From: a virus
Length of the DNA: 45,999 nt
Virus record (IMG/VR): IMGVR_UViG_3300034378_000175
Location: 1-45,999 of that record
Direction: 5' to 3' (one strand)
Under the pieces are notes generated by a model. It was not told the origin of the DNA. It searched no databases and saw only the letters and a list, made by a program, of their open reading frames with translations. The position numbers and the translations under genes were made by a program. This document shows, one piece after another, positions 493-36,700 of this stretch (its first letter is position 1; each line of letters begins with the position of its first letter).

Positions 493-507
493 GGAAAAGG
501 AGGATTT

Positions 508-3592: not shown

Positions 3593-3634
3593 AGAGTTAT
3601 CCCCTTATCTTAATAATTTAGGAAATGCATTAAA

Positions 3635-4144: not shown

Positions 4145-4345
4145 GGAAGAGTGGAATAATTTGTTAGTCCGTATTTTAGTTCTCGCATGCGACCTTATGA
4201 TTCAGGCACTCGTGACTGTGACGCCGAACAAATACAAATAAATAAATAATTAAATAAATAAATATAAATAAATGAATCTATTCTGTAACATTAACTGTAA
4301 CGTAGTAACGATATATAATAAATATAAATTATAATAAAAAGATTT
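4070..4345. other. Candidate replication origin: iteron-like repeats plus AT-rich segment
   Basis: This is about 200 bases without a gene plus the end of the HNH gene. It contains GTGAC/GTCAC pentamers five times within about 150 bases, including the inverted pair CGTGACAG (4076-4083) and CTGTCACG (4111-4118). It contains GTAAC four times (4107, 4285, 4297, 4305). The perfect palindrome TCGCATGCGA is at 4183-4192. A run of aaataaataaat-type sequence fills about 4228-4275. Repeats next to an easily melted stretch, just after the primase-helicase, is the usual look of a phage or plasmid origin. This is an inference from layout only. Confidence 0.4.
4291..4319 (+). promoter_or_regulatory. Possible sigma70 promoter
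   Basis: TTAACT at 4291-4296 and TATAAT at 4314-4319 are separated by 17 bases. The -10 box is perfect and the -35 box matches 4 of 6. It would start transcription near 4326, just before the genes at 4349 and 4500. AT-richness makes chance matches likely here. Confidence 0.45.
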
Positions 4346-4348
4346 CAA

Positions 4349-4534
4349 ATGCATAGAATCTGTTATAAATGCTTGTATTCAATATCTTGCGCCATTCCGG
4401 GATGGTTTCGTTGTAGGAAACGAAAATACAAGGTTGTTTCTAAGGCTCAGGAAGAGGCTTGCCAAGCTTTTAAAGAAGCAAAGGACTGGAGGAAGGTTAA
4501 TGGACTGGAGATCAGCGAAGGTTATAGCGGATAA
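4349..4534 (+). CDS. Small Cys-rich protein of the C-x2-C-x-(Y/F)-S type
   Basis: This 61-aa protein has RICYKCLYS at the N-terminus, a third cysteine in ISCAIPGWFRC, and a later EACQAF. The same order of a CxxC pair, an aromatic-Ser step, a middle Cys and a final Ala-Cys-aromatic occurs in the genes at 10699 and 11874, so these form a small family within this genome. It is probably a zinc-stabilised mini-domain of unknown role. The 3' end overlaps the nucleotidyltransferase start at 4500. No clear ribosome-binding site is seen before ATG 4349, and the strongest support is the family resemblance. Confidence 0.65.
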   Translation: MHRICYKCLYSISCAIPGWFRCRKRKYKVVSKAQEEACQAFKEAKDWRKVNGLEISEGYSG

Positions 4535-5003
4535 GGTTGTTTCAGATCTGAGGCCTTATTGCAAGCGGATTGAGACTGCAGGAAGCATCCGGAGACTGAG
4601 GTCTGAGGTAAAGGATATCGAAATTGTTTATATTCCTAAGCTTGCTTGCCTTATAGATCTGGCCAATTGTTTTGCTGGATGGTCCAGACTGAAAGGCAAA
4701 CCGACTGGAAGGTATATGCAGTTCTTACTGCCTGAGGGAATTAAGCTAGATCTATTTCAGGCCAATGAAAAGAACTGGGGTCTCATATATGCTATCCGGA
4801 CTGGCTCAGCTAGATTCAGCCGAGATATCTTGGCTAAGGGCTGGGTCAAGAAAGGATATTCATCTGAGCATGGAATTTTATATCCGATAGAAATGGCCTG
4901 CGAAGGCGAGCTAGATTATAAGCATCCAGTTTATATAAAAGAGGAGAAGGATCTATTTGATTTTATAGGCTTGGCTTGGGTCGAGCCGAAAGAGAGGGAA
5001 TGA
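4500..5003 (+). CDS. Pol-beta-like nucleotidyltransferase
   Basis: This is a 167-aa protein. ATG 4500 was chosen because GGAGGAAGG lies at the right distance. The frame is open further upstream, but that part overlaps the preceding gene. AGSIRRLRSEVKDIEIV near residues 23-39 is the GS...D.E signature of the DNA polymerase beta superfamily: Gly-Ser followed by two acidic residues for metal binding. A third acidic residue is likely in IKLDLF near residue 79. The length fits a palm-and-thumb-only enzyme without the 8-kDa lyase domain of full Pol X. It could fill short gaps or add nucleotides to ends. The ATGA overlap with a RecB/Cas4-like nuclease suggests that the two act in one repair or end-processing step. 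Confidence 0.8.
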   Translation: MDWRSAKVIADKVVSDLRPYCKRIETAGSIRRLRSEVKDIEIVYIPKLACLIDLANCFAGWSRLKGKPTGRYMQFLLPEGIKLDLFQANEKNWGLIYAIRTGSARFSRDILAKGWVKKGYSSEHGILYPIEMACEGELDYKHPVYIKEEKDLFDFIGLAWVEPKERE

Positions 5004-6682: not shown

Positions 6683-7192
6683 ATGCCAAGGAAAGGACAA
6701 CATCTGTCCGAATCTGCTAAAATAAAATTAAGCAAACTTCGGAATAAGCGGATAAGATTAATTTGTAAAATCTGTTCCAAAGAATTCTATGTGCCTCATA
6801 ATAAGGCAAAAATTCAAAGAGCATTTTGTTCCCGAAGATGTGTTGGAATATGGGCTTATTTAAATTGCTCGAGAACCAGAGAAACCTCGATAGAAATATT
6901 ATTAGCCAAAGCAATGGAACAAGAGAATCTGAAATTTAAAAAACAATTCCGAATCGGGACAATTGGGGTTGCTGATTTTTATTTACCTAAGTTTAATTTG
7001 ATAATAGAAGCTGATGGTGAGTATTGGCATCGAGCAGAGAGAAAAGAACGAGATGATAATAGAGATCTTCTTTTAAATTTCAGGGGATATAAAGTATTAA
7101 GATTTTCAGAAACCGAAATTAATAAATCTCCTGAAAAATGTGTAACTCGGATTAAAAAATTTTTGAATAAGGAGGGCAGGAGGAATAAATGA
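6683..7192 (+). CDS. Homing-type endonuclease: NUMOD3-like segment, zinc ribbon and Vsr/DUF559-like nuclease
   Basis: This 169-aa protein has AGGAGG 8 bases upstream. Residues 5-25 (GQHLSESAKIKLSKLRNKR) match the NUMOD3-type DNA-binding helix of homing nucleases. Residues 28-55 hold CKIC and CSRRC, a zinc ribbon. The C-terminal domain shows VADFYLPKFNLIIEADGEYWH near 92-112, a restriction-like Asp...Glu core with the downstream His, as in Vsr/DUF559 proteins. LRFSETEI near 140 supports the same fold. It is likely a free-standing homing endonuclease. Its 3' end overlaps the 70-bp repeat that carries the broken gene at 7189, so the insertion or duplication boundary may lie here. Confidence 0.85.
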   Translation: MPRKGQHLSESAKIKLSKLRNKRIRLICKICSKEFYVPHNKAKIQRAFCSRRCVGIWAYLNCSRTRETSIEILLAKAMEQENLKFKKQFRIGTIGVADFYLPKFNLIIEADGEYWHRAERKERDDNRDLLLNFRGYKVLRFSETEINKSPEKCVTRIKKFLNKEGRRNK

Positions 7193-7256
7193 ACAAAACA
7201 AAGCAGGCAGGGGGTAATGGTTGGAGGAATGAAATATCCAGATGTATGGATTGTAA
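7187..7256 (+). repeat. 70-bp direct repeat, copy 2
   Basis: Identical to 308-377. Beyond base 7256 the sequence is unrelated to copy 1. The left edge lies at the end of the endonuclease gene (stop at 7190-7192), so the copy looks like a recombination junction at this endonuclease. Confidence 0.95.
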
Positions 7257-13195: not shown

Positions 13196-13501
13196 ATGAA
13201 ATCGAAACTGAAAAATTCCCGCTCCATCCTAAGGCGCATCGAGACGCTTTTGGAATTTTTGAAATCGAATGATTTGATTCGACAGGGAGAGCTGTGCGGG
13301 ATGGCGAATGGCCTGAGGCTCCTGAAAGCAGAGATCACAGGAGAGGAGCCGTTGTTCGAGAGAGGTGAGACACTGAGAAAAATTGAAGGCGAAGTATTCT
13401 TTCACTGGACAGAGGAGCGGTTCACGATAATGAAATCCCAGCCAAGAAAAATCCGACAAGTCATCAAGGAGGAAATAAAGAAGTATTCTTTTAAAAAATG
13501 A
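13196..13501 (+). CDS. Hypothetical protein before the terminase; small-terminase candidate by position
   Basis: This is a 101-aa basic protein with helical N- and C-terminal parts (SRSILRRIETLLEFL; RKIRQVIKEEIKKY). It overlaps the large terminase by ATGA. Position and basic helices fit a small terminase subunit, but no helix-turn-helix is obvious, and the large subunit carries one itself at its N-terminus. Confidence 0.6.
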   Translation: MKSKLKNSRSILRRIETLLEFLKSNDLIRQGELCGMANGLRLLKAEITGEEPLFERGETLRKIEGEVFFHWTEERFTIMKSQPRKIRQVIKEEIKKYSFKK

Positions 13502-15300
13502 ACACAGGCTTTCGAAGGACCAAGAGACAGATCAAACATCTTGCTGGCCGGATCCATGAGATGCGGAGAGCCAAGATATCGAATGAAGCGATTCGGAAAA
13601 CTCTGAAACTTTCCAAGGATCAACTTTTCAGATATATAAATGCATACCCGGAACAAGATAAAAATTTTCACTTGGATAAGCAACTTATTAAGACCGAAGC
13701 CCTCAAGGAAATCAATCGGAATCTTAATCCTATTGAGTTCTGCGATGCATATTTGCCAATCAAATTGAAGCCGATGCAGAGGCTTATCTTGAAGGCCTTC
13801 TATAATTTAAAATTGTCTGCGGATGATAAGAAGCGACTTTTGAAATTAAAGAACCAAGGCAAGACAACATGGGAAGAGGGAGGCACCTATCAAGAGCTAG
13901 TTTTATTGATAGGTATGAAGGGTGGGAAAACAACCTTGGCTGCAGTCATCGCTCAGATCGAAGAATATGAGCTTTATAAGATCGGGGACATTTGCGGGAA
14001 ATATGGATTCGTTCCCGGCGAGGAAATCTATATCAAGAATGTAGCCACGAATGAGAAGCAGGCCTTCAAGACAATCTTTGCCAAGATAAAAGCTTCGATA
14101 GAAAGGTCGCCATATTTCAAGGCTCGCTACCCGAAGGAAAAGGAGAACATCTTCCATTTCCAAGACACGAATGTTTTCATCGAATCCGGCCATTCAAACT
14201 CGAGCTCGCTTGTCGGTGATAACTGCAAGCTAGTCCTTCTCGATGAGCTCGATAGATTCCGGTCTACAAATGGGAAATACTCTGCCGAGGAAGTTTATTC
14301 TGCTCTCGATAAGTCGACAGATCCCTTTGGCAGAGATGGGAAGAAGGTTTCGATATCCTCTCTGGTCCATGATAAAGGATTCATGGTCGAGCTTTACAAT
14401 AAATGCAGGACGATAAAATCGATGCTTGGATTCTGGATGCCTGAGTGGGAGATGCAACCGGACCGGTATTCCGGGAAGGTTTTCCTTCATGGCAATGTAA
14501 AGATTCCAATCGAGCATCATGACTCTTATCGAAAGAATCCAGAAAAGTTCCTTCGAGATAAGGCCTGCATGCTCGGATATACCAAAGGAGCATATTATAA
14601 GGAACCACATAGGGTGAGGCATTGTCTCGAGCAAAGCTATAATATAGGCATGAGAGATCCCATCGATCAGTTCGGTAGATTTGCCGAGAATTTCAGAGGA
14701 AAAAATTTCAAATATTTCGAACATCATGATCCCTCGGTCAGTCATGATGCTTATGCAGTTTGCCTTGGCCACATGGAGAAAGATTTTGTCATTATAGATA
14801 TGGTTCATAGATTTCTTCCGCCTGCAGAAGGTGGGGAGATCGACATCGAGAAAGTGAAGGAATTCTGTGATACTCTACATGAGCGCTTTCCCAGCCTCGA
14901 GCTGATAACCTATGATACATGGGCAGCCTCAGCCTTGATGCAGAGCTTTTCAAAGAAGGGATTCAAAGTTGAGAATCTCTATATTAAGAAACCTCAGCAT
15001 GATTTATTGAAGGAAAAAATATACAGCGATAAATTCCGTTGCCATAAGCATCGAATATTTTCAAAGGAATTGACTGAGCTCGAATTGAATGGAGATAAAG
15101 TCGACCATCCACAGGATGGAAGCAAAGATACGGCGGACTCAGTGGCCGGGGTTGTCTGGAATTGTGTGAAGGCTTATGGGACCGGAGTCACTGCGAATAT
15201 AGCTGTAAAATCGAAAGAAGATAAGGAGCCAGTCCGAGCTGGCTTTAAAAAATTAAATGGTAGGAGGAGAAAGATATGGGAATCAAGTCTCGTTTATTAA
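13498..15300 (+). CDS. Terminase large subunit
   Basis: This 600-aa protein packages DNA with ATP and cuts it. The ATPase has a Walker A variant GMKGGKTT near residue 139 and Walker B LVLLDELD near 245. The nuclease half shows the three acidic sites of the RNase H-like fold: HHDPSVSHD near 410, ITYDTW near 470 and DGSKDTADS near 540. Before the motor, residues about 20-48 contain a helix-turn-helix-like sequence (ISNEAIRKTLKLSKDQLFRY) like those used by small terminases to read DNA, which hints at a fused recognition domain. It overlaps the genes before and after, as usual in a packaging operon. Confidence 0.93.
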   Translation: MNTGFRRTKRQIKHLAGRIHEMRRAKISNEAIRKTLKLSKDQLFRYINAYPEQDKNFHLDKQLIKTEALKEINRNLNPIEFCDAYLPIKLKPMQRLILKAFYNLKLSADDKKRLLKLKNQGKTTWEEGGTYQELVLLIGMKGGKTTLAAVIAQIEEYELYKIGDICGKYGFVPGEEIYIKNVATNEKQAFKTIFAKIKASIERSPYFKARYPKEKENIFHFQDTNVFIESGHSNSSSLVGDNCKLVLLDELDRFRSTNGKYSAEEVYSALDKSTDPFGRDGKKVSISSLVHDKGFMVELYNKCRTIKSMLGFWMPEWEMQPDRYSGKVFLHGNVKIPIEHHDSYRKNPEKFLRDKACMLGYTKGAYYKEPHRVRHCLEQSYNIGMRDPIDQFGRFAENFRGKNFKYFEHHDPSVSHDAYAVCLGHMEKDFVIIDMVHRFLPPAEGGEIDIEKVKEFCDTLHERFPSLELITYDTWAASALMQSFSKKGFKVENLYIKKPQHDLLKEKIYSDKFRCHKHRIFSKELTELELNGDKVDHPQDGSKDTADSVAGVVWNCVKAYGTGVTANIAVKSKEDKEPVRAGFKKLNGRRRKIWESSLVY

Positions 15301-16712
15301 ATGTAATTGCAGGGAGTGAAATCGAAAAAATCGTCGGAGAGAAATTCGAAGCGAAATTGAAAGAGGCGAGTATCTCGAAACTTGAGAGGGAGCGACAGGA
15401 TCGAGACTGGAGACCTCTTACTGCTGCCCCAGTCAAGGCATTCAATCCAATCGAGCAATCTAAGATGTTCAAGATCGCTTACTATTTATATGACAAAAAT
15501 GGGATCGGCCATGCCTATGTCGAAATGCTGAAGGATTTCGTGATCGGGGATGGGATAACTTGGTCATGCGATGACGAGAAGGTTTCTGAGGTCATTGAGA
15601 CTCATTGGGAGTCGCCGATCAATCTATGGGAATATAAGCAGGATCAGAAAGTAAAAGAGATAGGGCTTTATGGTGAGCAATACTACCCTGTTTTTGTAAA
15701 TGATCAAACTGGGGAAGTTAATCTCGGCTATATCGATCCTGAGGCAATTGATGAGGTTAAAACTGATAAGAATAATGTCGAGAAACGAATCCTGTATACT
15801 TTAAAATCAATGCTCGAGGAAAAAGGAAAGAAAATGAGCTATAAAATTATTAATGTAGATGAGAATCCCCTCTCAGAAACTTATGGATATCTCATGGGCG
15901 AATCGTTTTTCTTTTCTATAAACAATGTAACTAATCAGCCTCGAGGCCGGAGCGATCTATTCCCTTCGGCAGATGCCATTGATGCTTATGAAAATTTCCT
16001 TTTTAACCGGGCAGAGCGTGCAGATCTGATGAATAGGATTATATACGATCTCAAAATGGAAGGACTCTCCGAGGACGAGATAAAAACCAAATTGAAAGAC
16101 TTCGACGTTCCTCGAGCCAATGAGGTCTATGGGCACAATGAAAAAACCGAGCTAGAAATCAAGGTCCCTGAGCTTGGATCTCAGGATGCCTCGAATGAAG
16201 CCAGATTATTAATGAATCATTTCTTAGGCGGACTGAGGGTTCCGCCGACTTGGTTTGCTATGGGGGAAGGTCTGACTAAAGGGACCGCAATGGTTATGGA
16301 TCTGCCGACTAAAAAAATGATTCGATCTCGGCAGAAGATTTTCAGATGGATGATACAGACGATCTTCAGATTTGTGATTCATCAGGCGATTATTCATGGC
16401 AAGCTCACAAAAGATAAAAAGAATACGAAGGTGAAATTAACCTTCCCGAGAATCGATGAGAAGGAAATCGAAGTCATTGCAACGGCCCTCGTTAATATTA
16501 CCAATGCTCTGACAGTAGCTCAGGAGAATGGATGGATATCAGAGGAAGATGCAGCCAAGAAATTTGCTTGGGTTATCTCTCGGATCGGAGAAGAAATGAA
16601 AGCACGGAATAAGGCTGAGACTAAAGAAGAGATAGACCGGAAACTTAAAGAATTATATATGAGACGGAAGCAAGCCGAGAAAATTGAAAATCCAAATGAT
16701 GAGGAAGAATAA
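15276..16712 (+). CDS. Portal protein
   Basis: This 478-aa protein starts behind AGGAGGAGAAAG inside the end of the terminase gene. Order, length and features fit a phage portal. There is an N-terminal helical region, a central part with IGDGITW and GYIDPEAID typical of portal wing strands, and a long helix near residues 330-380 (THMV-type crown region: LTKGTAMVMDLPTKKMI). The C-terminus is a charged tail. It forms the dodecamer through which DNA enters. No lysozyme or other fusion is seen. The identification rests mainly on position between terminase and a MuF-like protein. Confidence 0.85.
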   Translation: MGIKSRLLNVIAGSEIEKIVGEKFEAKLKEASISKLERERQDRDWRPLTAAPVKAFNPIEQSKMFKIAYYLYDKNGIGHAYVEMLKDFVIGDGITWSCDDEKVSEVIETHWESPINLWEYKQDQKVKEIGLYGEQYYPVFVNDQTGEVNLGYIDPEAIDEVKTDKNNVEKRILYTLKSMLEEKGKKMSYKIINVDENPLSETYGYLMGESFFFSINNVTNQPRGRSDLFPSADAIDAYENFLFNRAERADLMNRIIYDLKMEGLSEDEIKTKLKDFDVPRANEVYGHNEKTELEIKVPELGSQDASNEARLLMNHFLGGLRVPPTWFAMGEGLTKGTAMVMDLPTKKMIRSRQKIFRWMIQTIFRFVIHQAIIHGKLTKDKKNTKVKLTFPRIDEKEIEVIATALVNITNALTVAQENGWISEEDAAKKFAWVISRIGEEMKARNKAETKEEIDRKLKELYMRRKQAEKIENPNDEEE

Positions 16713-17572
16713 TGGTATTAACTCCGGGACAAAGGCGCAGGGTTTTGGATTCGAAAGTAAAAGGGACGCTGAGAGATCTCCGTCGACTCAATAAATCTGC
16801 AGTCAAAGGAATCCTTGGAGATCTGAGACGGACCAAGATTGAAATAACAAATATTTTAAAAGAAGTCGATAGATTTGAAATGCCTTATTATCGAGCCTTG
16901 CTTTCTGAGATCGATGGTAGAATAGCAGATTTCACGGGGCGGATGACTGGCTCGGTAGTCGGGGCGCAGAATATTTCTTTCGAGGCAGGGGATCTCTTAA
17001 GCGATGATATTCTTAAGGTTGCCGAAGTCGGCTATGGATTTCCAAAGGTTTCAGAGGCACTTCTGGCGACGACTCATGATCTTTCAGCAGATTTGGTTAC
17101 AGATATGAGCGATGAGATGCGACGAGATATATCAAGAAGTATCCGGCGAAGCATGTTAGTCGGAGAGAATCAATTTCAAGCAGCTCGGAAGATTGATAAG
17201 ATAATTGGAGTAAATAAGAAGGTTGGATATATGAATCGCTCAGATAAGATTGCAAGGACCGAGATCGGCAGAGCTTTCTCAGTAGCACGACAGGCCAAGG
17301 ATGAAATGGTCGCCGAGCAGATCCCTGAGATGAAGAAGCAGTGGATAACTGCTCAGGATGAACGGGTCAGACCATCGCCTTTATACCCTCAGCAGATGAA
17401 ACAAACTCGACGATGGAATCACAGAGCAGCTCATGGGCAGATCCGTAAAGTCGATGAACCCTTCGATGTGGCCGGGGAGAAGCTGATGTATCCCCGAGAT
17501 GAAACTGGATCACCTGAGAATGTTATCGGATGCCGATGTCAATCAGTCCCATATATGGAGGGCTGGGAATAA
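16712..17572 (+). CDS. MuF/SPP1 gp7-like minor head protein
   Basis: This 286-aa protein starts at a TAATG overlap with the portal. The C-terminal third has the classic MuF sequence order: ARTEIGRAFSVARQ near residues 181-194, KQWITAQDERVRP near 210-222, the H-rich part WNHRAAHG near 231-238, and GCRCQSVPY at the end. The N-terminal two thirds are helical. The family sits inside the head near the portal and may be ejected with DNA. The length is normal and no toxin extension is seen. Confidence 0.9.
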   Translation: MVLTPGQRRRVLDSKVKGTLRDLRRLNKSAVKGILGDLRRTKIEITNILKEVDRFEMPYYRALLSEIDGRIADFTGRMTGSVVGAQNISFEAGDLLSDDILKVAEVGYGFPKVSEALLATTHDLSADLVTDMSDEMRRDISRSIRRSMLVGENQFQAARKIDKIIGVNKKVGYMNRSDKIARTEIGRAFSVARQAKDEMVAEQIPEMKKQWITAQDERVRPSPLYPQQMKQTRRWNHRAAHGQIRKVDEPFDVAGEKLMYPRDETGSPENVIGCRCQSVPYMEGWE

Positions 17573-17591
17573 TTTTAACAGGGAGGTTTTT

Positions 17592-17984
17592 ATGAAAGGA
17601 TTTATTTTATTAGTTTGTTTCTTAGTACCAGTATTATGTTTCGGTGAGAATCCGCCATTGAAGTCCGAGATAACAGAAGGTTTGACGACAGCAACCTTCT
17701 TTGATTGCAAGACTTCAGATGTTTATTTTGGCGGTATTACTTCGGTTGTATCTTACAAGAAAACCGTTTCAATCGACACGGGCTTGATAACCTCGGGCCA
17801 GAGAGTCGCTATTCTCGGCGGGCTTGGAATAAACATTGGCCGGATTATGAAGAAGTTTCCCGGATGGGACATCAATAAGATTTTGGAATCGGCAAGGCTC
17901 GGAGGGTATGTTGCCAAATATATGGAACAGAGTCTCCAGATTGATATGTATGGACTGTATATTGGGACATATATTAAATTCTAA
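17592..17984 (+). CDS. Exported hypothetical protein, 130 aa
   Basis: ATG 17592 follows AGGGAGG; the frame is open upstream but lies inside the MuF gene. MKGFILLVCFLVPVLCFGEN is a Sec signal peptide with a cut near residue 19. The mature protein is a mixture of beta strands and Gly-rich stretches, ending in a predicted helix and MYGLYIGTYIKF, perhaps a membrane-contacting end. An exported protein inside a head operon is odd. It could be an outer-membrane or periplasmic modifier. Confidence 0.7.
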   Translation: MKGFILLVCFLVPVLCFGENPPLKSEITEGLTTATFFDCKTSDVYFGGITSVVSYKKTVSIDTGLITSGQRVAILGGLGINIGRIMKKFPGWDINKILESARLGGYVAKYMEQSLQIDMYGLYIGTYIKF

Positions 17985-18322
17985 TGTATGAATATAAAGT
18001 AAAGGTTTTAAAAGTAGTTGACGGAGATACTATAGATTTCGATATTGATTTGGGATTTTCTATTTCGATAGTGGTCCGGATCCGATTGTCCCGGATCAAT
18101 GCCTATGAAGTCAAAGGCAAAGAGAAACCAAAAGGGCTCAAGGCAAAGCGATATGTGAAATGGATCCTGAGCAGAGCCAAGCGGATAGAAATTGCGACCA
18201 AGAAGACTGGCAAATATAATCGATATGTCGCCGAGGTTGCGGTTCTTTTATATAAGGAATGGATGAATCTGAGCGATAGGTTGGTTGAAAAGAAGCATGC
18301 CAAATATAAGGCGTATCGTTAA
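17984..18322 (+). CDS. Staphylococcal-nuclease-like (SNase) protein
   Basis: This 112-aa protein starts at a TAATG overlap. VVDGDTIDFDIDLGF near residues 11-25 holds the metal-binding Asp. RIRLSRINAYEVKG near 32-45 holds the first catalytic Arg and the Glu. TGKYNRYVAEV near 72-82 holds the second Arg. The usual Asp before PE in the family (IDTPE) is Asn here (INAYE), so activity may be altered. No signal peptide, so it acts in the cell, perhaps on host DNA or as part of head maturation. It sits directly before the DNA-repair fusion. Confidence 0.85.
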   Translation: MYEYKVKVLKVVDGDTIDFDIDLGFSISIVVRIRLSRINAYEVKGKEKPKGLKAKRYVKWILSRAKRIEIATKKTGKYNRYVAEVAVLLYKEWMNLSDRLVEKKHAKYKAYR

Positions 18323-18506
18323 AAGACAAAAATCAGCGAATCATCTGCTGATTTCCTTGATATATAAAGGCAAGACTTTTGGAAAGTCCTTTGCTTTTAA
18401 AGACTTGAAGAAGGATCAAAAGAAAATTCTGAGATTCTACAAGCTCATGGGATTTGCTCTCAGAATGAAAATCAATGATTTAATAGAACAAGGCGGAGGC
18501 TTATGA
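18297..18506 (+). CDS. Small basic protein, 69 aa
   Basis: Start taken at ATG 18297; TTG 18285 is possible. The protein is strongly basic (Arg/Lys-rich first 15 residues, KDLKKDQKKILRFYKLMG in the middle). It overlaps the nuclease before and the giant fusion after (ATGA). It may bind DNA or belong to the SNase-fusion unit. No family is recognised. Confidence 0.6.
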   Translation: MPNIRRIVKRQKSANHLLISLIYKGKTFGKSFAFKDLKKDQKKILRFYKLMGFALRMKINDLIEQGGGL

Positions 18507-21500
18507 TGGGTAAGATATTAGAAAGAACAATTCAACTTTTGGAAGCAGTTCTTCCATATAAGCCCGAGGAAGCTCGGGATGACCAGCTCGCAGATGACTG
18601 GCGAATTTTTGGAGGCTGGTATTCAACTCTGAAAACTGCAGGTCAATTTAAGTATACCCAAGAGGAGATACTGTATAAATTTACAGTACCTGCCCTTATA
18701 GAAATTCTTAAACGAGGCAAGCAAGAATTCCATCCTGAAAACTGGAAGGATCATCCGAGAGAGCTATATCTTAAAGCTTTTAGAAAAATAAAGGATCAAG
18801 GAATTAAGATCCCTGAGAATATTGAGAAAGTTTTAAAAGAAGCCCTCGAGTTTCAGCCCGCTGATTGGGATGCCGAGCTTATGGCAAAAGAAAGTAATGA
18901 TGAGTTACTCGGAAGGCTTGGTGTGATTGCGGATATATTCAAAGCCCGAGGCTCAAATCCACAGGACGAGGAAGTTATAAATGCCTATATACTTCTTGGG
19001 GCAGAATTGGACAAACGTGGACTTGAATGGACTCAAGTGCCAGAATTAGAGGAGCATGCTAAGAAACTTCGGGAAGGCATTCGGCCAGCTTTCGGAAGTC
19101 CCGGTGGAAAGAAACTTCTATCAAAAATAATTGTTTCATATATTCCCGAACATAAAATCTATGTTGAACCATTTATTGGTGGTGGCGCAGTATATTTTGC
19201 AAAGAAACCTAGCGAAAGCGAAATCCTCAATGATAAAGATTCCGAGATTGCTTTTGCTTATAAATTTATTAAAGCAGGGAAATTTGAGAATCTGAAAAAA
19301 TTTAAGATGGATGGAGAACGAGAATATTTTGAAAAACTCAAAGAAAAGAAGCCTTCTAGTGATATAGAACGATTTCATAAATTTATCTATCTGCTCCATT
19401 TCTCTTATGGAAATGCCAGAGGAAATTTTGCTCCTTCTATTATACAAAGAAGGGATAGAGGGGATGGCACTTGCACTATTGCTTCCAGAGTGAATCATCT
19501 TCCCAAAGTTTCAGAGCGACTTAAGAATACCAAAGTTTATAATCAGGATTTCAGAGATATGATTAAGCAATTTGATTCGCCCAATGCCTTTTTTTATTTC
19601 GATCCTCCTTATCCTGAGCAACAGGGCAAATTAAAAACCGATCTGACCAATGAAGACTTGCTTGAAGCGCTTCGAAAAATAAAGGGTAAATGGATCCTCT
19701 CAATCTCTTCCAAGGGAAATATAAAAGAGCTTTTCAAAAATTATCATATAAAAAGCTTGACGCTCACGAGAACATTTGATAATCTGCATAGGCATGAAGA
19801 TAAGGAGTTCATTATTGCTAATTTTCCATTCAAAAAATCTCAGACATGGCTTGCAGAAGGTTTCCTCGATAGTTTTATCCTCGATGCCAAAGAAGAAATT
19901 GATGAGATTGGCCCAATTATCTGGAAGCCAAATTATATCAGCCTCTCAGGTTCAACATTATATGCCAAGGATCGAATGCCGAATGATCCTGATGTTATCT
20001 TTAGAGACAGCCAACTTGATGCAGGAATTACTATTAAACTTCAAAGATTATTCAAACGGATCCTAGGTGATGAACCACATTTTGTCCCTTCTCCATCTGG
20101 CCCCAACTGGAGACATTTTCCGCTTTATCATCTGGCCTTAATTCCAGTTAAGGATGCTCAGTTTATCGAGATCGGGGATGAAGAGCCGGGGTTTGCTAAG
20201 AAATTTTACGAACAAGAACCTCGAGCTGCAAGCCCCGAGGTCAAGAAAGAAATCGAAGACTCGGCAAAACAGGACAGGATTAAGATGTTCCGGATGTTCC
20301 AAGGGATGAAGCCAACCCGAGCGGCCAAGCCGAATCATAGAATGTCGATTGATTATTTTATTTCGTTATTCAAGCCTGAGGATTTCAAGGCTGGGATCCT
20401 GAGTTCAAAAAAATACGATGGCATGAGAGTTTTAATTTTCCGAGATGGCAAGCGGATTGAAATCTGGAGCGAGGACGGAGAAAATGTTACAAACCGTCTA
20501 CCCAAGACGATTGATGCCTTGAGTAAAATCAATGGAGACGAATATATAATCGATGCCGAGATCGAACTTTGGAAGGAAGGCAAACATCAACCTCGGGAGG
20601 CGATAGCTGGATATATCCACGCTAAGACTGAGCCAGATGACTCAGGGGTTGTAGCAAATATTTTCACAGTCCTTTATCATAACGGAGAGGATCTACATAA
20701 GAAGCCTGAAATTGAAAGACAGAGAATTCTTGAAAAATTCGGCATTCCTCAATCGACTTGGAGCATCCCTCGAGTAGATTTTCATCTCAATCGAGTTCCG
20801 AATTTACTCTCGCATACTCCAGAAAAATTAAGAAAGGATACTATTTTTGTCTCGAAGCAAATTGGAAGCGAAGGCAATGTTGCCAAGAAAACCAATTCAG
20901 TCTATTATCTCGACGGTAGGTCGAGGGGAGGATGGATCAAGTGGCATTCCAATGCTTTGATCTACGGAATCGTAATTAAGCGAAACCCGACGAAAGTTGA
21001 GACAGTTTTCAATTATGATTATGGAATCTTTCCGGGAAAATATAAGATCCGAGAAGAAGATTTAATTGAAGTCGAAGGCAAGAAATATGTAAAAGTCGGA
21101 ACTACTTTCAATACAGATGAAAAGAAAAACCGAGGCGACTTAATAGCAGTAGAATGCGAAACTCTCAATTTGATTGATAATAAAAAGAGAGATACTTTTG
21201 AAGTTACGGCTTGGGCTCCCCGGTATATTTATCTCGATAAGACTGAGGAACCTATTCCAGAGAAAGCAGATACTATCGAAGCAGTTGTGGAGAAGGCTCG
21301 AAAGAATCGAGTGCTTCAAAAGAAAACTATCACCGAGGAAGGAGTAACGCTTTATGAATCCACTCATCCCACTTGGGAAGATCTTATTGATTGTCAAAAC
21401 TTGGAAGACTTTAGCAAACTTGCAGAAGTTCTATCGCTTCCTCAAGAAGAATTTCCAGAAGGCCTCGAAGAAGAAAGCCGATTCGAATCTGAGCGACCAA

Positions 21501-23119
21501 GTATAAAATTTAAAGAATTCATTCGAGAAGAAAAAAGACCTCTGAAGGAATACCCGAAGGATTATGGGGTTATCCTGAATCATTTCCGAGGCAAATCTGT
21601 GCATATAGATTTTAGGCGGAAGCAGAATGGATACCTCGAAGGCGAAACTATCATGAATGCCCCTGCTGGCTTGGTAACCGAGGATGTTGACACTCTTGCC
21701 AAAGCGAGGAAATGGAATAAAGTATTATTAGAAAAAGGCAAATTCAGACCAGATATGGATCCGACTAAGAAAGCGGTCCTCGTAGGCAAGGCCAGACAGC
21801 CTCTCGAATGGTTGAATGTCAGAGAAGTCGTTTACCCGCCGGGATCGGTAGGAGCGACAAGATATGAATGGGGAGCCTTTGTGACTATGGATGAGGGCAT
21901 GGCTTATCCCGGAGTCCAGAGACCTTATTTCAAAGAGTTCTTTCTGGATATGAAGCATTTTAAAGAGAAGCGAATGGTCGAGAGAGCAATCGGAGTCAGC
22001 CCGGAATGGGAGAAACCCCCGAAAGCTCCGATCCAATGGCAGACTTGGACAAACATGGCAGATGAGACTCCCTATATCTTATCGAAGCGACAGAGGAAAG
22101 ATAAGCGAGACTATATCCCTGAGGAAGGGGAGAAGGCCATTCCGCCTTGGTGGGAGGAAAAGATAAAACCAGAACATCGATGGTGGGTCAAGGGCCTGAA
22201 ACCTAAAGAGAGAATGAAGCGACTGGATTTGGCCTTCAATGATTTGATAGAACAGGGTTTCCTGAAGCATATTCCAATAGAGATTAAAGAAGAGACTCTA
22301 CAGGAAAAAAAGGCAGAGTTTACCCTGAGATTCAGATGGTGGATGGGACCAAAAGTTGTCCGAGAGCTTCCTGCGACAGACTCACAATTTGAATTGCTTA
22401 TCGATTCGGGAAAGAATTATTTAGATAGGTGGGATTTCAAGGGCAAGTTCTATGGAGATCCGACGAAGCAACCTGAAGTCATTGCTCGGCGAAAGACTAT
22501 GAATATCGGGACTCCGAATACTGAGCCTTTTAAGAAATGGATGGACTGGGAAGGTTCGATTCCCGCAAAAGATTCCAAATTAGAGAAGGTTGTAGTAATC
22601 TCAAAAGAGAATAATATTTATCAAGTAAGAGTTCAAGAGGAAGATGGTCAAAGTAGTCCATTCCCTACTAAACCAACTTTTGCAAAATTTAAACCGGGAC
22701 AAGAAGTTTGGATTGATCAATGGAAGAATATTTATACTGGACCAAAAGGCGGGATTGCCTATGGGAATCCGAATGAGCGCCTGCCAGTTTATATTGATAT
22801 CAAAGACTTTGGAGATGTCGAGCTTATAGAAGAAACCGATCAATTCATCTCCTTTAAATTCGATGGCAAACTTCTTAAGGGTTATTATGTAATAAGACGA
22901 GAGGATCCAAAATCTGATATCTGGATATTCTCTAAGGGTAAGCTCCCGGGTGAAAAGATAGAGAAAGAAGCTCTCTTCGAATCTGAGACCTCTACCATAA
23001 GCACTCAAAGTTTTGATTTTACAAACTCAGATGGATTTCCAGTTGAAATAAAATATCAAAATAATACATATAATCTTATATTGACGAAGAATGACAAGCT
23101 TTTGTTAAATAAAAAGTAA
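18503..23119 (+). CDS. Giant multidomain DNA-modification and repair protein (Dam-like methylase, nucleotidyltransferase-like, ATP-dependent DNA ligase, LigD-phosphoesterase-like)
   Basis: This is a 1538-aa single frame with no internal stop. Residues 1-190 are an unknown helical region. About 195-445 is a Dam-type adenine methylase: GSPGGKK, YVEPFIGGGAVYF, and DPPYPEQQG near 367. About 470-560 has LSGSTLYAKD...DPDVIFRD, the GS...D.D order of a nucleotidyltransferase. About 610-940 is an ATP-dependent ligase: the nucleotide-binding lysine in KKYDGMR near 636, IDAEIEL near 683, EGNVAKK near 789, WIKW near 811, and an OB-like part. About 1010-1130 contains HFRGKSVHIDFRRKQNGYL, like the H...H-x-D-x-R core of the LigD 3'-phosphoesterase. 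The last 350 residues are unknown. It may seal or mark DNA during packaging, or be cut into units by the phage protease. A long gene like this inside a head operon is unusual. Confidence 0.85.
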   Translation: MMGKILERTIQLLEAVLPYKPEEARDDQLADDWRIFGGWYSTLKTAGQFKYTQEEILYKFTVPALIEILKRGKQEFHPENWKDHPRELYLKAFRKIKDQGIKIPENIEKVLKEALEFQPADWDAELMAKESNDELLGRLGVIADIFKARGSNPQDEEVINAYILLGAELDKRGLEWTQVPELEEHAKKLREGIRPAFGSPGGKKLLSKIIVSYIPEHKIYVEPFIGGGAVYFAKKPSESEILNDKDSEIAFAYKFIKAGKFENLKKFKMDGEREYFEKLKEKKPSSDIERFHKFIYLLHFSYGNARGNFAPSIIQRRDRGDGTCTIASRVNHLPKVSERLKNTKVYNQDFRDMIKQFDSPNAFFYFDPPYPEQQGKLKTDLTNEDLLEALRKIKGKWILSISSKGNIKELFKNYHIKSLTLTRTFDNLHRHEDKEFIIANFPFKKSQTWLAEGFLDSFILDAKEEIDEIGPIIWKPNYISLSGSTLYAKDRMPNDPDVIFRDSQLDAGITIKLQRLFKRILGDEPHFVPSPSGPNWRHFPLYHLALIPVKDAQFIEIGDEEPGFAKKFYEQEPRAASPEVKKEIEDSAKQDRIKMFRMFQGMKPTRAAKPNHRMSIDYFISLFKPEDFKAGILSSKKYDGMRVLIFRDGKRIEIWSEDGENVTNRLPKTIDALSKINGDEYIIDAEIELWKEGKHQPREAIAGYIHAKTEPDDSGVVANIFTVLYHNGEDLHKKPEIERQRILEKFGIPQSTWSIPRVDFHLNRVPNLLSHTPEKLRKDTIFVSKQIGSEGNVAKKTNSVYYLDGRSRGGWIKWHSNALIYGIVIKRNPTKVETVFNYDYGIFPGKYKIREEDLIEVEGKKYVKVGTTFNTDEKKNRGDLIAVECETLNLIDNKKRDTFEVTAWAPRYIYLDKTEEPIPEKADTIEAVVEKARKNRVLQKKTITEEGVTLYESTHPTWEDLIDCQNLEDFSKLAEVLSLPQEEFPEGLEEESRFESERPSIKFKEFIREEKRPLKEYPKDYGVILNHFRGKSVHIDFRRKQNGYLEGETIMNAPAGLVTEDVDTLAKARKWNKVLLEKGKFRPDMDPTKKAVLVGKARQPLEWLNVREVVYPPGSVGATRYEWGAFVTMDEGMAYPGVQRPYFKEFFLDMKHFKEKRMVERAIGVSPEWEKPPKAPIQWQTWTNMADETPYILSKRQRKDKRDYIPEEGEKAIPPWWEEKIKPEHRWWVKGLKPKERMKRLDLAFNDLIEQGFLKHIPIEIKEETLQEKKAEFTLRFRWWMGPKVVRELPATDSQFELLIDSGKNYLDRWDFKGKFYGDPTKQPEVIARRKTMNIGTPNTEPFKKWMDWEGSIPAKDSKLEKVVVISKENNIYQVRVQEEDGQSSPFPTKPTFAKFKPGQEVWIDQWKNIYTGPKGGIAYGNPNERLPVYIDIKDFGDVELIEETDQFISFKFDGKLLKGYYVIRREDPKSDIWIFSKGKLPGEKIEKEALFESETSTISTQSFDFTNSDGFPVEIKYQNNTYNLILTKNDKLLLNKK

Positions 23120-23162: not shown

Positions 23163-23744
23163 ATGAAACGATGCCACCAATGCAATAAAATCCTACCTGA
23201 TTTTCTATTCAGTAAAAACCGATGGAGAAAAGATGGAAAACAGAATGAATGTAAAGAATGCCAAAGGCAATACGGCGAAATTAATAGAGAAAGAATAAGA
23301 AAATATGGTCGACGACACTATCGGAAAAATAAAGAATATGTTTTGGCGCATTGTAAGGAATACCGTCTCAAGAATAGGAAACTTCGTACCCAATGGGTTA
23401 AAAATAAATACCATAGCGATACATCTTTTAGGCTTAGCTTTAATATGGCAGCAGTGATTCGACATTCTTTAAAGGGCAGGAAAAATGGCTGCAAATGGGA
23501 ATCTTTAGTAGGTTATTCTGTCTCAGATTTAAGAGAACATTTGGAAAAAAAATTTAGAAATGGGATGACTTGGGAGAATTATGGAAAATTTTGGCATATC
23601 GACCATATTATCCCCATTTCTCTTTTTTCATATTCTGATTTTAGAGACCGAGAATTCAAGCAATGTTGGGCTTTAGCAAATTTACAACCACTTTTATCGT
23701 CAGAAAATTTGAGTAAAGGCAATAGAATTCCAAATTTTAATTAA
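23163..23744 (+). CDS. HNH endonuclease with N-terminal zinc finger
   Basis: This 193-aa protein begins with two CxxC pairs (RCHQCNK, ECKECQR, residues 4-37), followed by a long basic helical region. The C-terminal HNH has WHIDHIIPISLF near 142-153, the central Asn of ALANLQPLL near 170, and ENLSKGN at the end. The third element lacks a second zinc CxxC, like HNH members without a structural zinc. It interrupts the head operon between the giant fusion and the capsid gene and has its own promoter, typical of a mobile free-standing endonuclease. Confidence 0.9.
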   Translation: MKRCHQCNKILPDFLFSKNRWRKDGKQNECKECQRQYGEINRERIRKYGRRHYRKNKEYVLAHCKEYRLKNRKLRTQWVKNKYHSDTSFRLSFNMAAVIRHSLKGRKNGCKWESLVGYSVSDLREHLEKKFRNGMTWENYGKFWHIDHIIPISLFSYSDFRDREFKQCWALANLQPLLSSENLSKGNRIPNFN

Positions 23745-23910: not shown

Positions 23911-26514
23911 ATGAAGTTTTTTTTCCATTCCGCAAGACTTATAGAGGCAAAAGATAAATCAGGAAAAGACTGGGAAGTTGTCTTGATACAGGCTGGGAAG
24001 TCTTTAAATAATAAGATCTACCCAGCCGAGGTTCTTAAGAAGGCTGTCAAGCTTTTTAATAATGTCAAGGCATTTGCCTACGAGTTTCCGGGAAAGATAT
24101 TCAACCATTTTCCTGAGAATGCTCGGAAAGTTGTCCCTGAAGGTTGCGCTCGAAATGTTGTTGGTTGGTATGATAATCCAAGATATGCAAGCTTTAAGGA
24201 TAGCGAAGGGAAAACCCATCAGGGAATCGTAGCCAGATTCCATGTATCCGAAGGAGCTCAGTGGCTTAGGAAACTTCTTAAAGATGCATGGCAATATGGT
24301 AAACATTCTTTGCTGGGTTTTTCCATTGATGGCAGTGGTGATGTAAGCGAGACCACTGTGAATGGGAAAAGAACTTTAATGGTAAATTCAATTAATAGTA
24401 TCGATGAAGTGACACTGGTCACTCATCCAGCAGCAGGCGGACAGTTTAAGAGACTGCTCGCATCTAAAAATTTCATAGAGGAGGAAGAAGCGATGAATTT
24501 TTTAAAAGAGTTGTATAATTGGGTAAAGAATTTGAAGGAAGGACTAATCGAAGGAGTGGACCCAGAGCATATTACTGAGGAACAGGAATTTTCATTCATA
24601 AAGTTTTTAGTAGAGAATGAGAAATTTCCACCGAAAGAGAAACTCGAGGAAGCTGGTCCATTTGTCTCAGCAACGATTGATCGTTTAATCGAAATGCTGA
24701 AAGGGAATAAACAGGCAGAGGCACTGAAGCTCCTGACGGCACTAAAAGAGAAATTGACAAAATATGGGTATCCGAGTGTGGCAAAATACTATGGCTATCC
24801 GACTCAAGCTCAGCAGGAAGAAGAGAAAAAGAGACAGGCCGAAGCCGAAGCGAAAAAAACGAAGGATGAAGAGGCAAAGAAAGTAAAAGAGGAAGAGGAA
24901 AGAAGGAAACAGCTTAGCGAGATTGAGAAAGTGAAAGAAGATGTTAAAAAGATGCAGGAAGACACACTGAGAGCAAATTGCAGAGCACTCTTGGCCGAAT
25001 CTCTCGCATCAAGTGATCTACCTCAGCCCGTTAAAGATAAGGTTTCAAAACTATTTGAAGGCAAAATATTCACGAAGGAAGAACTCGAAAAAGCAATTGA
25101 TCTGGAAAAAGAAGTTCTTGGAAAGCTTTCTGAGAGCGGAGATATAAAAGGACTCGGACAGAGAAAAGAAAGCATCGAAGTGATAAAGGATTCAGCCGAT
25201 AAGATTCAGGTTGCTATGGATAAACTGATTGATGACGAGGCCGAAGTACCAGAGAAAATGAAAGATATCCCGGCATTTACAAGTCTAAAAGAAGCCTACA
25301 GAACCTACCATCCGGATGATCCGACAATTTCAGGTAATATTGATAGAAGGAAACACGCTCAGAGACTGACCGAAGCAATAACTACTGGTGACTTCACTTA
25401 TGCACTGGGAACCTCGATGACACGAAAACTCGTCAAAGCATTTAAGAAAGTAGCATTTGACTTTGCTAATATAGTCACAGAGACAGGGATAGATAATTTC
25501 AAACAGCAAGAGAGAGTGAAATGGGGCGGGTATTCAACACTTCCGACAATAACTGAGGACGCAGCCTATACCGATCTATACGAACCGAGAGACGAGGAAG
25601 CTACCTATACAGCAGGGACCAAAGGCGGTTATGTATCAGTCTCCCGAAGAGCGATCAAAAATGACGACCTCGGACTATTAAAGAGAATCCCGACATTAGT
25701 TGGAACAGCAGCAAAAAGAACCCTTTCCAGAGATGTCTCAGGTTTACTGACAGCGAATGGAACCTATACCCCTACGAATTCGACAGTCTTCTCAACCCTG
25801 TTTGGAAACTATTCAACCAGAGCGCTCAACTATGATAATTTCGTTTGGGCAGATATTGCATTAAGAGGAATGAAGGAAAGAGGCTCAGCACAGGATGCAG
25901 GAACTGCAACAGCCGCAAGCTCAACGACCTTGACCGATAGCTCAAAATCATGGACAGTCGATGCGTTTATTGGATACTATGTCAGGATAGTTTATGGAAC
26001 GGGAGCAGGACAAGTTGTAGCAATCACAGATAATGATGCGACTTCAGTGACTGTAGCTGCTTGGACCACGACACCAGATACGACTTCAAGATATGAAATT
26101 TCAACAGCTCAGAATGACGATGAAGTCATCGGATTTGCACCTCGCTATTTAGTTTATGGTTTACAGTTACAGAGAATTATTAATGCATTACAGAGAAGCG
26201 ATAGAAGATATGATAATGCCGAGAACGAAGACAACTTCTTTAAGAGACAGAATGTGACCCCGATATTCAATCCTTACTTAACTGGAAGCACGACCCAATA
26301 TTACTGGTACCTCATTGCGGGCAAGGATCAGACAGATATAATCGAGATCGGATATGTCGACAATCAGAGAACCCCTACACTCGTGATTCAAGACCAACCA
26401 GCACTCGGCGAAGTATTCACAAATGACAAACTGAGATGGAAGATCCGATATGAATACGGCTTGGCAATAATCGAGAACAAAGCGATCATAGCAAACGAAG
26501 CGACAACTGTATAA
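23911..26514 (+). CDS. Prohead protease - scaffold - major capsid protein fusion
   Basis: This is an 867-aa protein. Residues 1-195 are a prohead protease (herpesvirus-assemblin-like fold): DWEVVLIQAGKSLNNKIYP at the start, KHSLLGFSIDGSG near 130-142 with the likely Ser, and VTLVTHPAAGGQF near 169-181. Residues about 200-445 are a scaffold, with a Lys/Glu/Ala-rich coiled coil near 290-355. From about 455 to the end is an HK97-type capsid subunit (LTEAITTGDF, ERVKWGGYSTLP, YVSVSRRAIKNDD). A 69-residue module at 662-730 is shared with tail proteins. The protease should cut the chain during head assembly. Such triple fusions are known but uncommon. Confidence 0.88.
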   Translation: MKFFFHSARLIEAKDKSGKDWEVVLIQAGKSLNNKIYPAEVLKKAVKLFNNVKAFAYEFPGKIFNHFPENARKVVPEGCARNVVGWYDNPRYASFKDSEGKTHQGIVARFHVSEGAQWLRKLLKDAWQYGKHSLLGFSIDGSGDVSETTVNGKRTLMVNSINSIDEVTLVTHPAAGGQFKRLLASKNFIEEEEAMNFLKELYNWVKNLKEGLIEGVDPEHITEEQEFSFIKFLVENEKFPPKEKLEEAGPFVSATIDRLIEMLKGNKQAEALKLLTALKEKLTKYGYPSVAKYYGYPTQAQQEEEKKRQAEAEAKKTKDEEAKKVKEEEERRKQLSEIEKVKEDVKKMQEDTLRANCRALLAESLASSDLPQPVKDKVSKLFEGKIFTKEELEKAIDLEKEVLGKLSESGDIKGLGQRKESIEVIKDSADKIQVAMDKLIDDEAEVPEKMKDIPAFTSLKEAYRTYHPDDPTISGNIDRRKHAQRLTEAITTGDFTYALGTSMTRKLVKAFKKVAFDFANIVTETGIDNFKQQERVKWGGYSTLPTITEDAAYTDLYEPRDEEATYTAGTKGGYVSVSRRAIKNDDLGLLKRIPTLVGTAAKRTLSRDVSGLLTANGTYTPTNSTVFSTLFGNYSTRALNYDNFVWADIALRGMKERGSAQDAGTATAASSTTLTDSSKSWTVDAFIGYYVRIVYGTGAGQVVAITDNDATSVTVAAWTTTPDTTSRYEISTAQNDDEVIGFAPRYLVYGLQLQRIINALQRSDRRYDNAENEDNFFKRQNVTPIFNPYLTGSTTQYYWYLIAGKDQTDIIEIGYVDNQRTPTLVIQDQPALGEVFTNDKLRWKIRYEYGLAIIENKAIIANEATTV
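25894..26100 (+). repeat. Shared 70-residue module, copy in the capsid protein
   Basis: Residues 662-730 begin DAGTATAASSTTLTDSSKSW, contain IVYGTGAGQVVAI, and end TTSRYEI. Clearly related modules occur in the tail tube protein (two) and in a tail-tip protein. Placed within the capsid domain, it looks like an inserted surface-exposed beta domain. Confidence 0.85.
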
Positions 26515-35272: not shown

Positions 35273-35284
35273 GGAGGTATTATT

Positions 35285-36700
35285 ATGGGCGGAACTACAG
35301 GAAAACTTACTCATTTTGGAATTGCCAGAGAGGTAACTTTTGGGACGGCAGTTGGAGCAACCGCTTATCTCAAATATAATTCAGAAACTCTGACAACGGC
35401 CATTGAGGAATTGATTGAAGCATCTTTAAATAATCGAAGCGATGAAGGGGCTTCTTATGAGGGACTGAATACTCATGCGGGGGATTCGGTTCACGAAGTC
35501 CATCCTGCAGGGATCGGGTACTTATTGAGAAGCGCACTGGGATCTCCTCTCACTGTGGATAATACTGGTTCGTATACTCACACATATACCCCGATTGCAG
35601 GAAGGAATGCTGATTCGGGAACTGCGACTGCAGGGACCTCTACGACATTGACAGATTCAGGAGCGACTTGGACAATCGATGACCATATTGGCGATTGGCT
35701 ACATATTACTGCAGGAACAAATTCTGGGGAATATAGAATCATTTCGGATAATACCGCAACTGTAATTACTGTTGCCTCAGCTTTTACTTCCCCGATAGAT
35801 GCGACCTCAGTATATGAAATTACTCCCGGACCGGAGCATTGTGCCTTGCCACCTTATACTATTGAAGTTCATAGAGATTTGACAGGATCTACCCCAGCCT
35901 TTCAATATGCTGGTGGTGTTATAAATACTTTATCTTTAACCCTTGGAGTCGGAGCGAAGATCTTAACAGCGACTAGTTCATGGTTAGCAAAGTCTGTGGC
36001 TAATATAGCAGCGACAACTCCTTCACTTCCAACTACTGATCCTTTCATGTGGGACGATGCCATCCTTGGAGTTGGCTTAGCCGTGGGAGATACAGCAACT
36101 GGAGGATCCTCGACTACAATAGTTAAAACTGCGGCAGGATGGACTGCTAATGCCTATCAGAATATGATTGTCTTAACAACTGGTGGAACTGGGCCGAATC
36201 AATGCAGGAAGATAAGCTCGAATACAACTGATACTCTGACTTGTACTCCTGCTTTTACGGTAGCTCCTGCATCCGGAACAACTTTCAAGGTATTCAATGC
36301 CCATAATTTAACCGAGACAATTACTTTCAATTGGACAAACGGATTGATAGCTGTACCTCTTTTAAATAATACAAATACAATTGCCCAGATTGATAGAGAT
36401 GCTTTTAGAAGTGGAACGATTTCCCGGACAGTTATTCCTCAACAGATAACTGATTTTGGGACTTATTATACAGGTTGGACGACTCGGGAATGGTGTTTAT
36501 ATTTCCATGGGGCTCAGATCACAGGGAATCATTACTATGATCTGGTATTCTATTTCCCGAAAGTTTTATTCACGGCATATCCGGTCAATGTCGGCGGTGG
36601 AGGAAGGATAACCGTCGCAGATGGTCTGAAAATAAAATACGATAGCACGGCAGGATATTTTATGAAATGTATCCTTCAGAACAATACCAGCTCTTACTAA
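35285..36700 (+). CDS. Major tail (tube) protein with two inserted repeat modules
   Basis: This 471-aa protein follows AGGGAGG. The start, LTHFGIAREVTFGTAVGATAYL, is typical of siphovirus tail tube proteins, as is LIEASLNNRSDEGASYEG with its domain turn. Without the inserts the core is about 330 residues. Two copies of the shared 70-residue module lie at residues 110-179 and 269-337. They would decorate the outside of the tail tube. A terminator follows at 36767, as expected for the most strongly expressed tail gene. Confidence 0.85.
   Translation: MGGTTGKLTHFGIAREVTFGTAVGATAYLKYNSETLTTAIEELIEASLNNRSDEGASYEGLNTHAGDSVHEVHPAGIGYLLRSALGSPLTVDNTGSYTHTYTPIAGRNADSGTATAGTSTTLTDSGATWTIDDHIGDWLHITAGTNSGEYRIISDNTATVITVASAFTSPIDATSVYEITPGPEHCALPPYTIEVHRDLTGSTPAFQYAGGVINTLSLTLGVGAKILTATSSWLAKSVANIAATTPSLPTTDPFMWDDAILGVGLAVGDTATGGSSTTIVKTAAGWTANAYQNMIVLTTGGTGPNQCRKISSNTTDTLTCTPAFTVAPASGTTFKVFNAHNLTETITFNWTNGLIAVPLLNNTNTIAQIDRDAFRSGTISRTVIPQQITDFGTYYTGWTTREWCLYFHGAQITGNHYYDLVFYFPKVLFTAYPVNVGGGGRITVADGLKIKYDSTAGYFMKCILQNNTSSY
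35612..35821 (+). repeat. Shared 70-residue module, tail tube copy 1
   Basis: Residues 110-179: DSGTATAGTSTTLTDSGATW at the start, a central ITAGTNSGEYRII, and DATSVYEI at the end. It aligns through its whole length with the capsid and tail-tip copies. Confidence 0.85.
36089..36295 (+). repeat. Shared 70-residue module, tail tube copy 2 (diverged)
   Basis: Residues 269-337: DTATGGSSTTIVKTAAGW at the start, LTTGGTGPNQCRKI in the middle, and SGTTFKVF at the end. It is the most diverged of the four copies, but the order and length are kept. Confidence 0.75.

Follow-up and report, generated by a model that had tools for sequence, protein, structure and literature searches.

The window, that is, the whole 45,999-nucleotide stretch of the viral record IMGVR_UViG_3300034378_000175, carries in its head operon a single open reading frame (ORF) of 1538 codons that starts with ATG and contains no internal stop. 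The frame encodes a fusion of two N-terminal modules (ModA and ModB), a Dam-type methylase, a nucleotidyltransferase (NTase)-like segment, an ATP-dependent DNA ligase and a phosphoesterase (PE) domain, PE1, with a probable second copy, PE2 (Table 1). Upstream lie the genes for the terminase large subunit (TerL), the portal, a MuF-type protein and a staphylococcal-nuclease-like protein (SNase), and downstream those for an endonuclease VII (EndoVII)-like protein and a head maturation protease fused to the major capsid protein. The arrangement agreed with the original prediction, which had described one unbroken multi-enzyme frame among head genes with an SNase neighbour. All motifs quoted in that prediction were also found: GGGAVYF and DPPYP for Dam, then GSTLYAKDRMPNDPD, KKYDGMR, IDAEIEL, SEGNVAKK, WIKW and HFRGKSVHIDFR.

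Table 1. Positions of the fusion gene, its domains and the neighbouring head-operon genes in the window.
Feature	Position	Strand	Residues	Evidence or remark
Fusion protein ModA-ModB-Dam-(NTase-like)-ligase-OB-like-PE1-PE2	18503..23119	+	1538 aa	Single open frame, domain profiles
ModA, N-terminal module of unknown function	18503..18820	+	1-106
ModB, second module of unknown function	18830..19084	+	110-194
D12-class (Dam) adenine methyltransferase	19070..19837	+	about 190-445	Pfam, PHROG
Putative minimal nucleotidyltransferase	19910..20182	+	470-560	ISLSGSTLYAKDRMPNDPDVIFRD
ATP-dependent DNA ligase adenylation domain	20300..20956	+	600-818	Candidate nucleophile Lys637
OB-fold-like ligase region	20960..21277	+	820-925	Alignment with archaeal ligases
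PE1, LigD-type 3'-phosphoesterase	21566..22102	+	1022-1200	H1027, H1034, D1036, R1038
PE2, probable second PE-like domain without catalytic histidines	22304..23011	+	about 1268-1503
Terminase large subunit (TerL)	13498..15300	+		phrog_9, 1.1e-17
Portal protein	15276..16712	+		phrog_10963, 1.7e-33
MuF-type minor head protein	16712..17572	+		Pfam Phage_Mu_F, 1.2e-10
Staphylococcal-nuclease-like protein (SNase)	17984..18322	+		Pfam SNase, 3.3e-6; phrog_452, 5.9e-25
Endonuclease VII-like protein	23163..23744	+		phrog_1035 endonuclease VII, 2.4e-15
Head maturation protease fused to major capsid protein	23911..26514	+		Pfam Phage_capsid_4, 8.6e-25; phrog_133, phrog_4523

Domains of the fusion protein

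Pfam matches above the cut-off on the fusion protein were confined to the methylase and the ligase, the two identities that had been proposed from motifs. The methylase matched MethyltransfD12 (1.9e-20, residues 200-424) and a PHROG DNA methyltransferase profile (2.3e-48), contained both D12 signature motifs (FxGGG and DPPY) and aligned by sequence with Dam/DpnM structures. Preceding it, ModA is probably helical; it matched loci L001 and L004 at 68-73% and had more distant counterparts in the archaeal viral loci L011, L059, L104, L105 and L107. The possibility that ModA and ModB are duplicates of one another gained no support from their comparison.

The ligase matched DNA_ligase_A_M at 7.6e-20 (residues 631-813) and solved ligases at 4.9e-10. 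Motifs I (KKYDG, with Lys637), III (IDAE) and IV (SEGNVAKK) were retained, and Thr replaced Asp in motif IIIa; the OB assignment downstream was made by inspection only. Among the relatives, a single in-frame TAG stood just before ligase motif IV in four loci (L055 7491-7493, L101 5065-5067, L102 5065-5067 and L109 4150-4152), and in L103 a 111-nt spacer (3739-3849) broke the ligase at the same point. The breaks in these five loci may reflect recoding, a ligase truly made of two subunits, or decay of the gene. The ligase domain of L100 (ORF 2-4684) contained an intein with a LAGLIDADG domain at residues about 1031-1349.

The segment between methylase and ligase had been proposed as a nucleotidyltransferase, a proposal that stands at the level of the motif, with the fold putative. 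The G-S...D-x-D motif was present in the window and in most relatives, with D-I-W instead, and hence loss of the second Asp, in L004, L093 and L097. Pfam and PDB-profile searches with the segment gave no match, its structural model was poor (pLDDT 42.7), and Foldseek with this model found nothing significant. Alignment by hhalign with archaeal minimal nucleotidyltransferases was weak but in register (P 0.0013, vs 0.4-0.6 for unrelated controls). We treat the segment as a candidate NTase at the level of its motif.

The LigD-type phosphoesterase was recovered by profile and by model. Pfam LigD_N gave no match on the window protein itself; it matched the relatives L012 (4.4e-7), L013 (4.1e-4) and L015 (2.8e-3). 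A window-led profile of eleven viral sequences matched the archaeal LigD-type PE structures 3p43 (6e-6) and 3p4h (1.1e-3), and matched Pseudomonas LigD PE weakly. When aligned by hhalign with the Pseudomonas LigD PE alignment, the whole viral set gave 94% probability (E 1.3e-7, a single comparison) and the window clade alone 3%, its alignment being too shallow. Confidence in the AlphaFold model of residues 1013-1538 was moderate to low (mean pLDDT 53.6); in a Foldseek search of 350,542 PDB chains with the PE-region model, the top seven matches were all LigD-PE entries, six of them at probability 1.00. The same kind of search against viral models returned one high-probability match, an unnamed 827-aa protein (A0A516LT18). 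Judged by profiles and predicted structure, the LigD-type PE fold of the window protein is established.

PE1 keeps the metal (Mn) ligands H1027, H1034 and D1036 together with R1038, which correspond to LigD His42, His48, Asp50 and Arg52 (PMC8656161), with one extra residue between its two histidines compared with LigD. The H-x6-H-x-D pattern was retained in nearly all relatives. In the profile comparison, the N-terminal H-x6-H-x-D-x-R segment and a far-downstream C-terminal segment matched one and the same pair of regions in PE chains, and the model contained two similar strand runs; these two observations suggest that the PE is probably tandem with a degenerate second copy. Direct hhalign of the two halves gave no match, so that the tandem reading rests on profile and model.

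Reshuffled relatives and their genomic setting

Some two dozen viral loci carried rearranged versions of the protein; their distant branch takes in the archaeal ANMV-1 virus and contigs from metagenome-assembled genomes (MAGs) of Methanophagales/Methanosarcinales. The four closest loci showed 60-67% best-segment identity; L001, L002 and L003 were without Dam, and in L004 the gene was split between ligase and PE. A search for the same fusion elsewhere, as the original prediction had recommended, recovered the complete Dam, NTase, ligase and PE set in four further contigs from other metagenomes: L009 (1593 aa, metagenome 3300032046), L093 (1607 aa, 3300035688), L095 (1645 aa, 3300009528) and L097 (truncated, 3300032118). 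Close pairs of relatives showed purifying selection (dN/dS 0.05-0.21); because dS between the window and L001 was saturated, the values were taken from other close pairs. Mis-assembly, which the prediction had named as a possible source of the long frame, and a chance frame were both rejected on the grounds of these independent contigs and of purifying selection. The reshuffled family, the mobility of Dam within it and the probable degenerate second PE copy had all been overlooked.

The Dam domain, lacking in the nearest relatives L001-L003, was present in L009, L093, L095, L097 and L098, and in the first four of these was placed before, between or after ModA, ASCH and ModB; it is a mobile insert within the family, and its independent re-fusions suggest selection for activity. 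The other parts were rearranged as well. In L108, NTase, PE and ligase were followed by an XkdF head protease in one polypeptide (Pfam 1.2e-29), and in L055 the PE was fused to a DUF2213/head-maturation-protease-like domain. L098 encoded ModA-Dam-PE, with no ligase found; L110/L111 and L114 had the ligase before the PE; and L012 and L015 carried the parts as separate genes. In L099 (1639-7233) Dam, NTase, ligase, ModA, ASCH and PE followed an N-terminal metallo-beta-lactamase-fold domain, which was joined to the same enzyme set in L100 (2-4684) and is possibly a nuclease. Most members of the family kept the PE1 H-x6-H-x-D pattern and ligase motifs I and IV. Because the parts recur in shuffled order, they look like a modular kit for DNA finishing, so far undescribed and linked to the viral head.

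A further module of about 110 residues, ASCH/PUA-like, occurred in L001 (residues 105-216), L009, L095 and others, fused to these proteins or to portal-type proteins; in L059 and L011 it lay at the C-terminus of portal-type proteins. Its matches were weak (PDB 2dp9 and 1wk2 at about 5e-3, Pfam ASCH at 0.019), and in one relative it showed a sub-threshold match to LPD28 (0.18). L058 (3-2000), in a genome from the phylum of the Methanophagales MAG, had a NUDIX domain before NTase-ligase, with the PE in an overlapping ORF. One archaeal-genome contig carried Dam in a gene of its own close to a terminase-like ORF (L056 9949-10842) and, in the same contig, an ASCH-like plus PE protein (L057 8321-10288) whose end resembles a prohead protease by eye only and had no PHROG or Pfam match.

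Every distant locus whose neighbours were examined by PHROG had at least one portal, head maturation protease or major head protein. In tblastn searches of 50,697 phage records with four family members, the ligase/PE part was found in ANMV-1 only, whose host is described as an anaerobic archaeon that probably oxidises methane; the remaining matches were to methylases, ligases and head genes of the ordinary stand-alone kind. The ANMV-1 product labelled 'MutT-like phage hydrolase' (L006 1913-3193) matched at 7e-109 an L013 protein that PHROG calls portal, and by this likeness is probably a misannotated portal. A short ORF in the interval between the MuF and SNase genes of the window (17499-17984) begins with a signal-peptide-like stretch, MKGFILLVCFLVPVLCFGE, additional ORFs with such starts are present in L004 and L009, and a DnaG-type primase lies at window 845-3592; together, the signal-peptide-like starts and the primase suggest a bacterial host for the window virus. 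The same parts were reshuffled across a large family of viruses of archaea and probably also of bacteria.

Elsewhere in the window, a 27-bp repeat was present in about six copies at both contig ends (1-165 and 45836-45999), possibly an iteron-like region marking the opening point of a circular or terminally redundant genome. A 108-nt direct repeat occurred at 270-377 and 7149-7256, 84% identical and with 6.9 kb between the copies. Two tail-region proteins (35273-36697 and 39350-40894) contained segments resembling part of the protease-capsid protein; the common segment is perhaps a decoration-type domain.

Possible roles in finishing viral DNA

We propose, with a rough probability of 0.5, that the fusion is a head-module protein of the multi-enzyme 'polyvalent' type that finishes viral DNA, is associated with the virion and acts most likely during genome entry into the next cell, ahead of viral gene expression. 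The protein would be assembled with the prohead, perhaps cut by the maturation protease, and would remain with the DNA. PE1 would clean 3' ends, the ligase would seal nicks or join genome ends, and Dam would methylate viral DNA against restriction; the NTase-like domain may extend ends with nucleotides or have a protein as its target of modification. The neighbouring SNase and EndoVII-like proteins would contribute by processing damaged or branched DNA. Constant across the family are the pair of end-healing and end-sealing domains, in many cases a methylase, and a gene that is co-expressed with, or fused to, those of head proteins. Phage polyvalent proteins are encoded near late genes and are predicted to be injected with the DNA (PMC5512222); T4 packages and processes its internal protein I, which is injected and blocks restriction (PMC3012670). 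Prohead processing or carriage in the virion, an idea already raised in the original prediction, drew support from the relatives fused to XkdF (L108) and to a DUF2213/protease-like domain (L055).

The head-operon setting also fits a more tentative alternative, in which finishing takes place at packaging in the producing cell: EndoVII would trim branches, PE and ligase would mend nicks and gaps at which the terminase stalls, Dam would mark the packaged DNA, and entry into the virion would be unnecessary. An EndoVII-like gene lies directly downstream of the fusion and SNase upstream, and the gene order with terminase and portal is that of co-transcription. Loss of T4 ligase or endonuclease VII leads to fewer DNA-filled heads (PMC10893049), and nicks block in vitro packaging of short DNA in T4 (PMC3012670). 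A motor role alone, however, leaves the prohead-protease fusions of L108 and L055 unexplained, and the SNase and EndoVII-like neighbours had no profile match in the relatives scanned. T4 ligase, moreover, is an early replication gene and not a head gene, which counts against action at packaging. The XkdF fusion in L108 leads us to lean towards a head-borne protein over packaging-time action.

Several observations weigh against a head-borne finishing enzyme. The second motif V lysine of the ligase is replaced by His in the window clade (KWH, as IKWH, instead of KxK), and motif VI (RxDK) was unrecognisable in that clade when aligned with archaeal ligases. Among the relatives, ANMV-1 and L012-type members kept KYK and RKDR/RKDK for motif V, VI or both, the RKDR/RKDK segment standing at the motif VI position in ANMV-1 and L012; the altered sequences may lower or change self-adenylation. 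His84 and Tyr88 are essential in Pseudomonas LigD PE (PMC8656161), and these positions are Gln/Glu and Trp in the viral family (Gln and Trp in the window clade). With both the ligase motifs and the PE positions altered, the protein may fall short of full canonical activity. The protease fusions occur in distant relatives and not in the window, and Pfam detected neither of the hallmark polyvalent partners, ART and zincin peptidase, in the window protein.

The same substitutions bear on two further explanations. The original prediction had suggested a phage version of bacterial end joining, and a viral non-homologous end joining (NHEJ) system, in which a LigD-like joiner repairs double-strand breaks or circularises the genome and the NTase-like domain replaces the LigD polymerase, would account for a single protein that combines ligase and LigD-type PE, as LigD does, and for a possible end-adding NTase between modules. 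However, Ku (PF02735) was found in none of 18 records (the window and 17 related ones), although the host may supply a Ku; AEP Prim-Pol (PF21686) had no match in the window and none over the cut-off in the 17 related records; and the NTase identity is at motif level. Without Ku and LigD polymerase, with the His84/Tyr88 positions replaced, ligase motif V altered and motif VI unrecognisable, bacterial-type NHEJ is unsupported, and we consider this explanation unlikely. Still less probable is a largely non-catalytic scaffold or decoy, whose domains would have been kept as DNA-binding or structural head modules after partial catalytic loss. The degenerate PE2, the altered ligase motifs and the second Asp lost from the NTase motif in L004, L093 and L097 are as expected of such a protein, but nearly all relatives retain, under purifying selection, Lys-x-Asp-Gly, the SEG of motif IV, the PE H/H/D set and DPPY, and the re-fusions of Dam suggest selected activity.

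Extended from the window protein to its family, the head-borne reading becomes speculative: these proteins may form an undescribed and widespread class of DNA-finishing machines that tailed viruses of archaea and bacteria carry in their virions. End healing, ligation and adenine methylation would be made in advance in one polypeptide with head proteins, packaged, freed by the maturation protease and applied to the genome at entry, as a Ku-free route of end joining or nick repair.

Comparison with known systems

The literature searched contained nothing that combines LigD with phage polyvalent proteins or describes this fusion, and the ANMV-1 papers were silent on its ligase; statements of novelty are limited to the sequence collections searched. 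The fusion ties DNA repair chemistry, namely a ligase and LigD-type end healing, directly to virion assembly, and evolution has repeatedly fused, split and reordered its parts at one and the same genomic location. Were the protein packaged, the virion would bring its own kit for repairing and marking DNA, and the long-standing question of how a linear phage genome outlasts nicks, frayed ends and restriction in the first minutes after entry would become testable.

The polyvalent proteins of Iyer et al. 2017 (PMC5512222) resemble the window protein in combining disparate enzymatic domains per polypeptide beside virion late genes, and share with the present family a reshuffled domain order and members joined to head components. 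Their known parts include Dam-type methylases and Pol-beta NTases. The main text of that study names RNA ligases only and no LigD, whereas the window protein has a DNA ligase and a LigD-type PE; the polyvalent hallmarks (zincin peptidase, ART, LPD), absent from the window protein, are not obligatory in the published set.

Bacterial LigD shares with the window protein an ATP-dependent ligase and a LigD-type 3'-phosphoesterase in one chain. The window protein differs in having no AEP polymerase or Ku, in its Dam, NTase-like and probable tandem PE domains, in its head-operon gene, and in the altered PE His84/Tyr88 positions and ligase motifs V and VI. Two of its domains are LigD-like, and the protein is not itself a LigD. 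The T4 internal proteins, ligase and endonuclease VII are possible functional analogues (an injected head protein, nick sealing and branch removal; PMC3012670, PMC10893049), encoded by separate genes and with no homology claimed. Archaeal stand-alone 3'-phosphoesterases (PDB 3p43, 3p4h and 5dmp) gave the best profile and fold matches to the PE region; these proteins are small and single-domain, in contrast to the probably tandem viral PE within a fusion.

The named counterpart with the same domain order is the 'ATP-dependent DNA ligase' of ANMV-1 (KP703175, AJP62006), in which an NTase-like segment, ligase and PE share 27% identity with the window protein over the core, and whose gene directly follows a portal-type gene. 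It differs from the window protein in its length of 866 aa and in the absence of Dam, ModA and ModB, and its annotation mentions the ligase only. The present comparison offers a function for this protein, and a Ku-free ligase-PE enzyme for biochemists.

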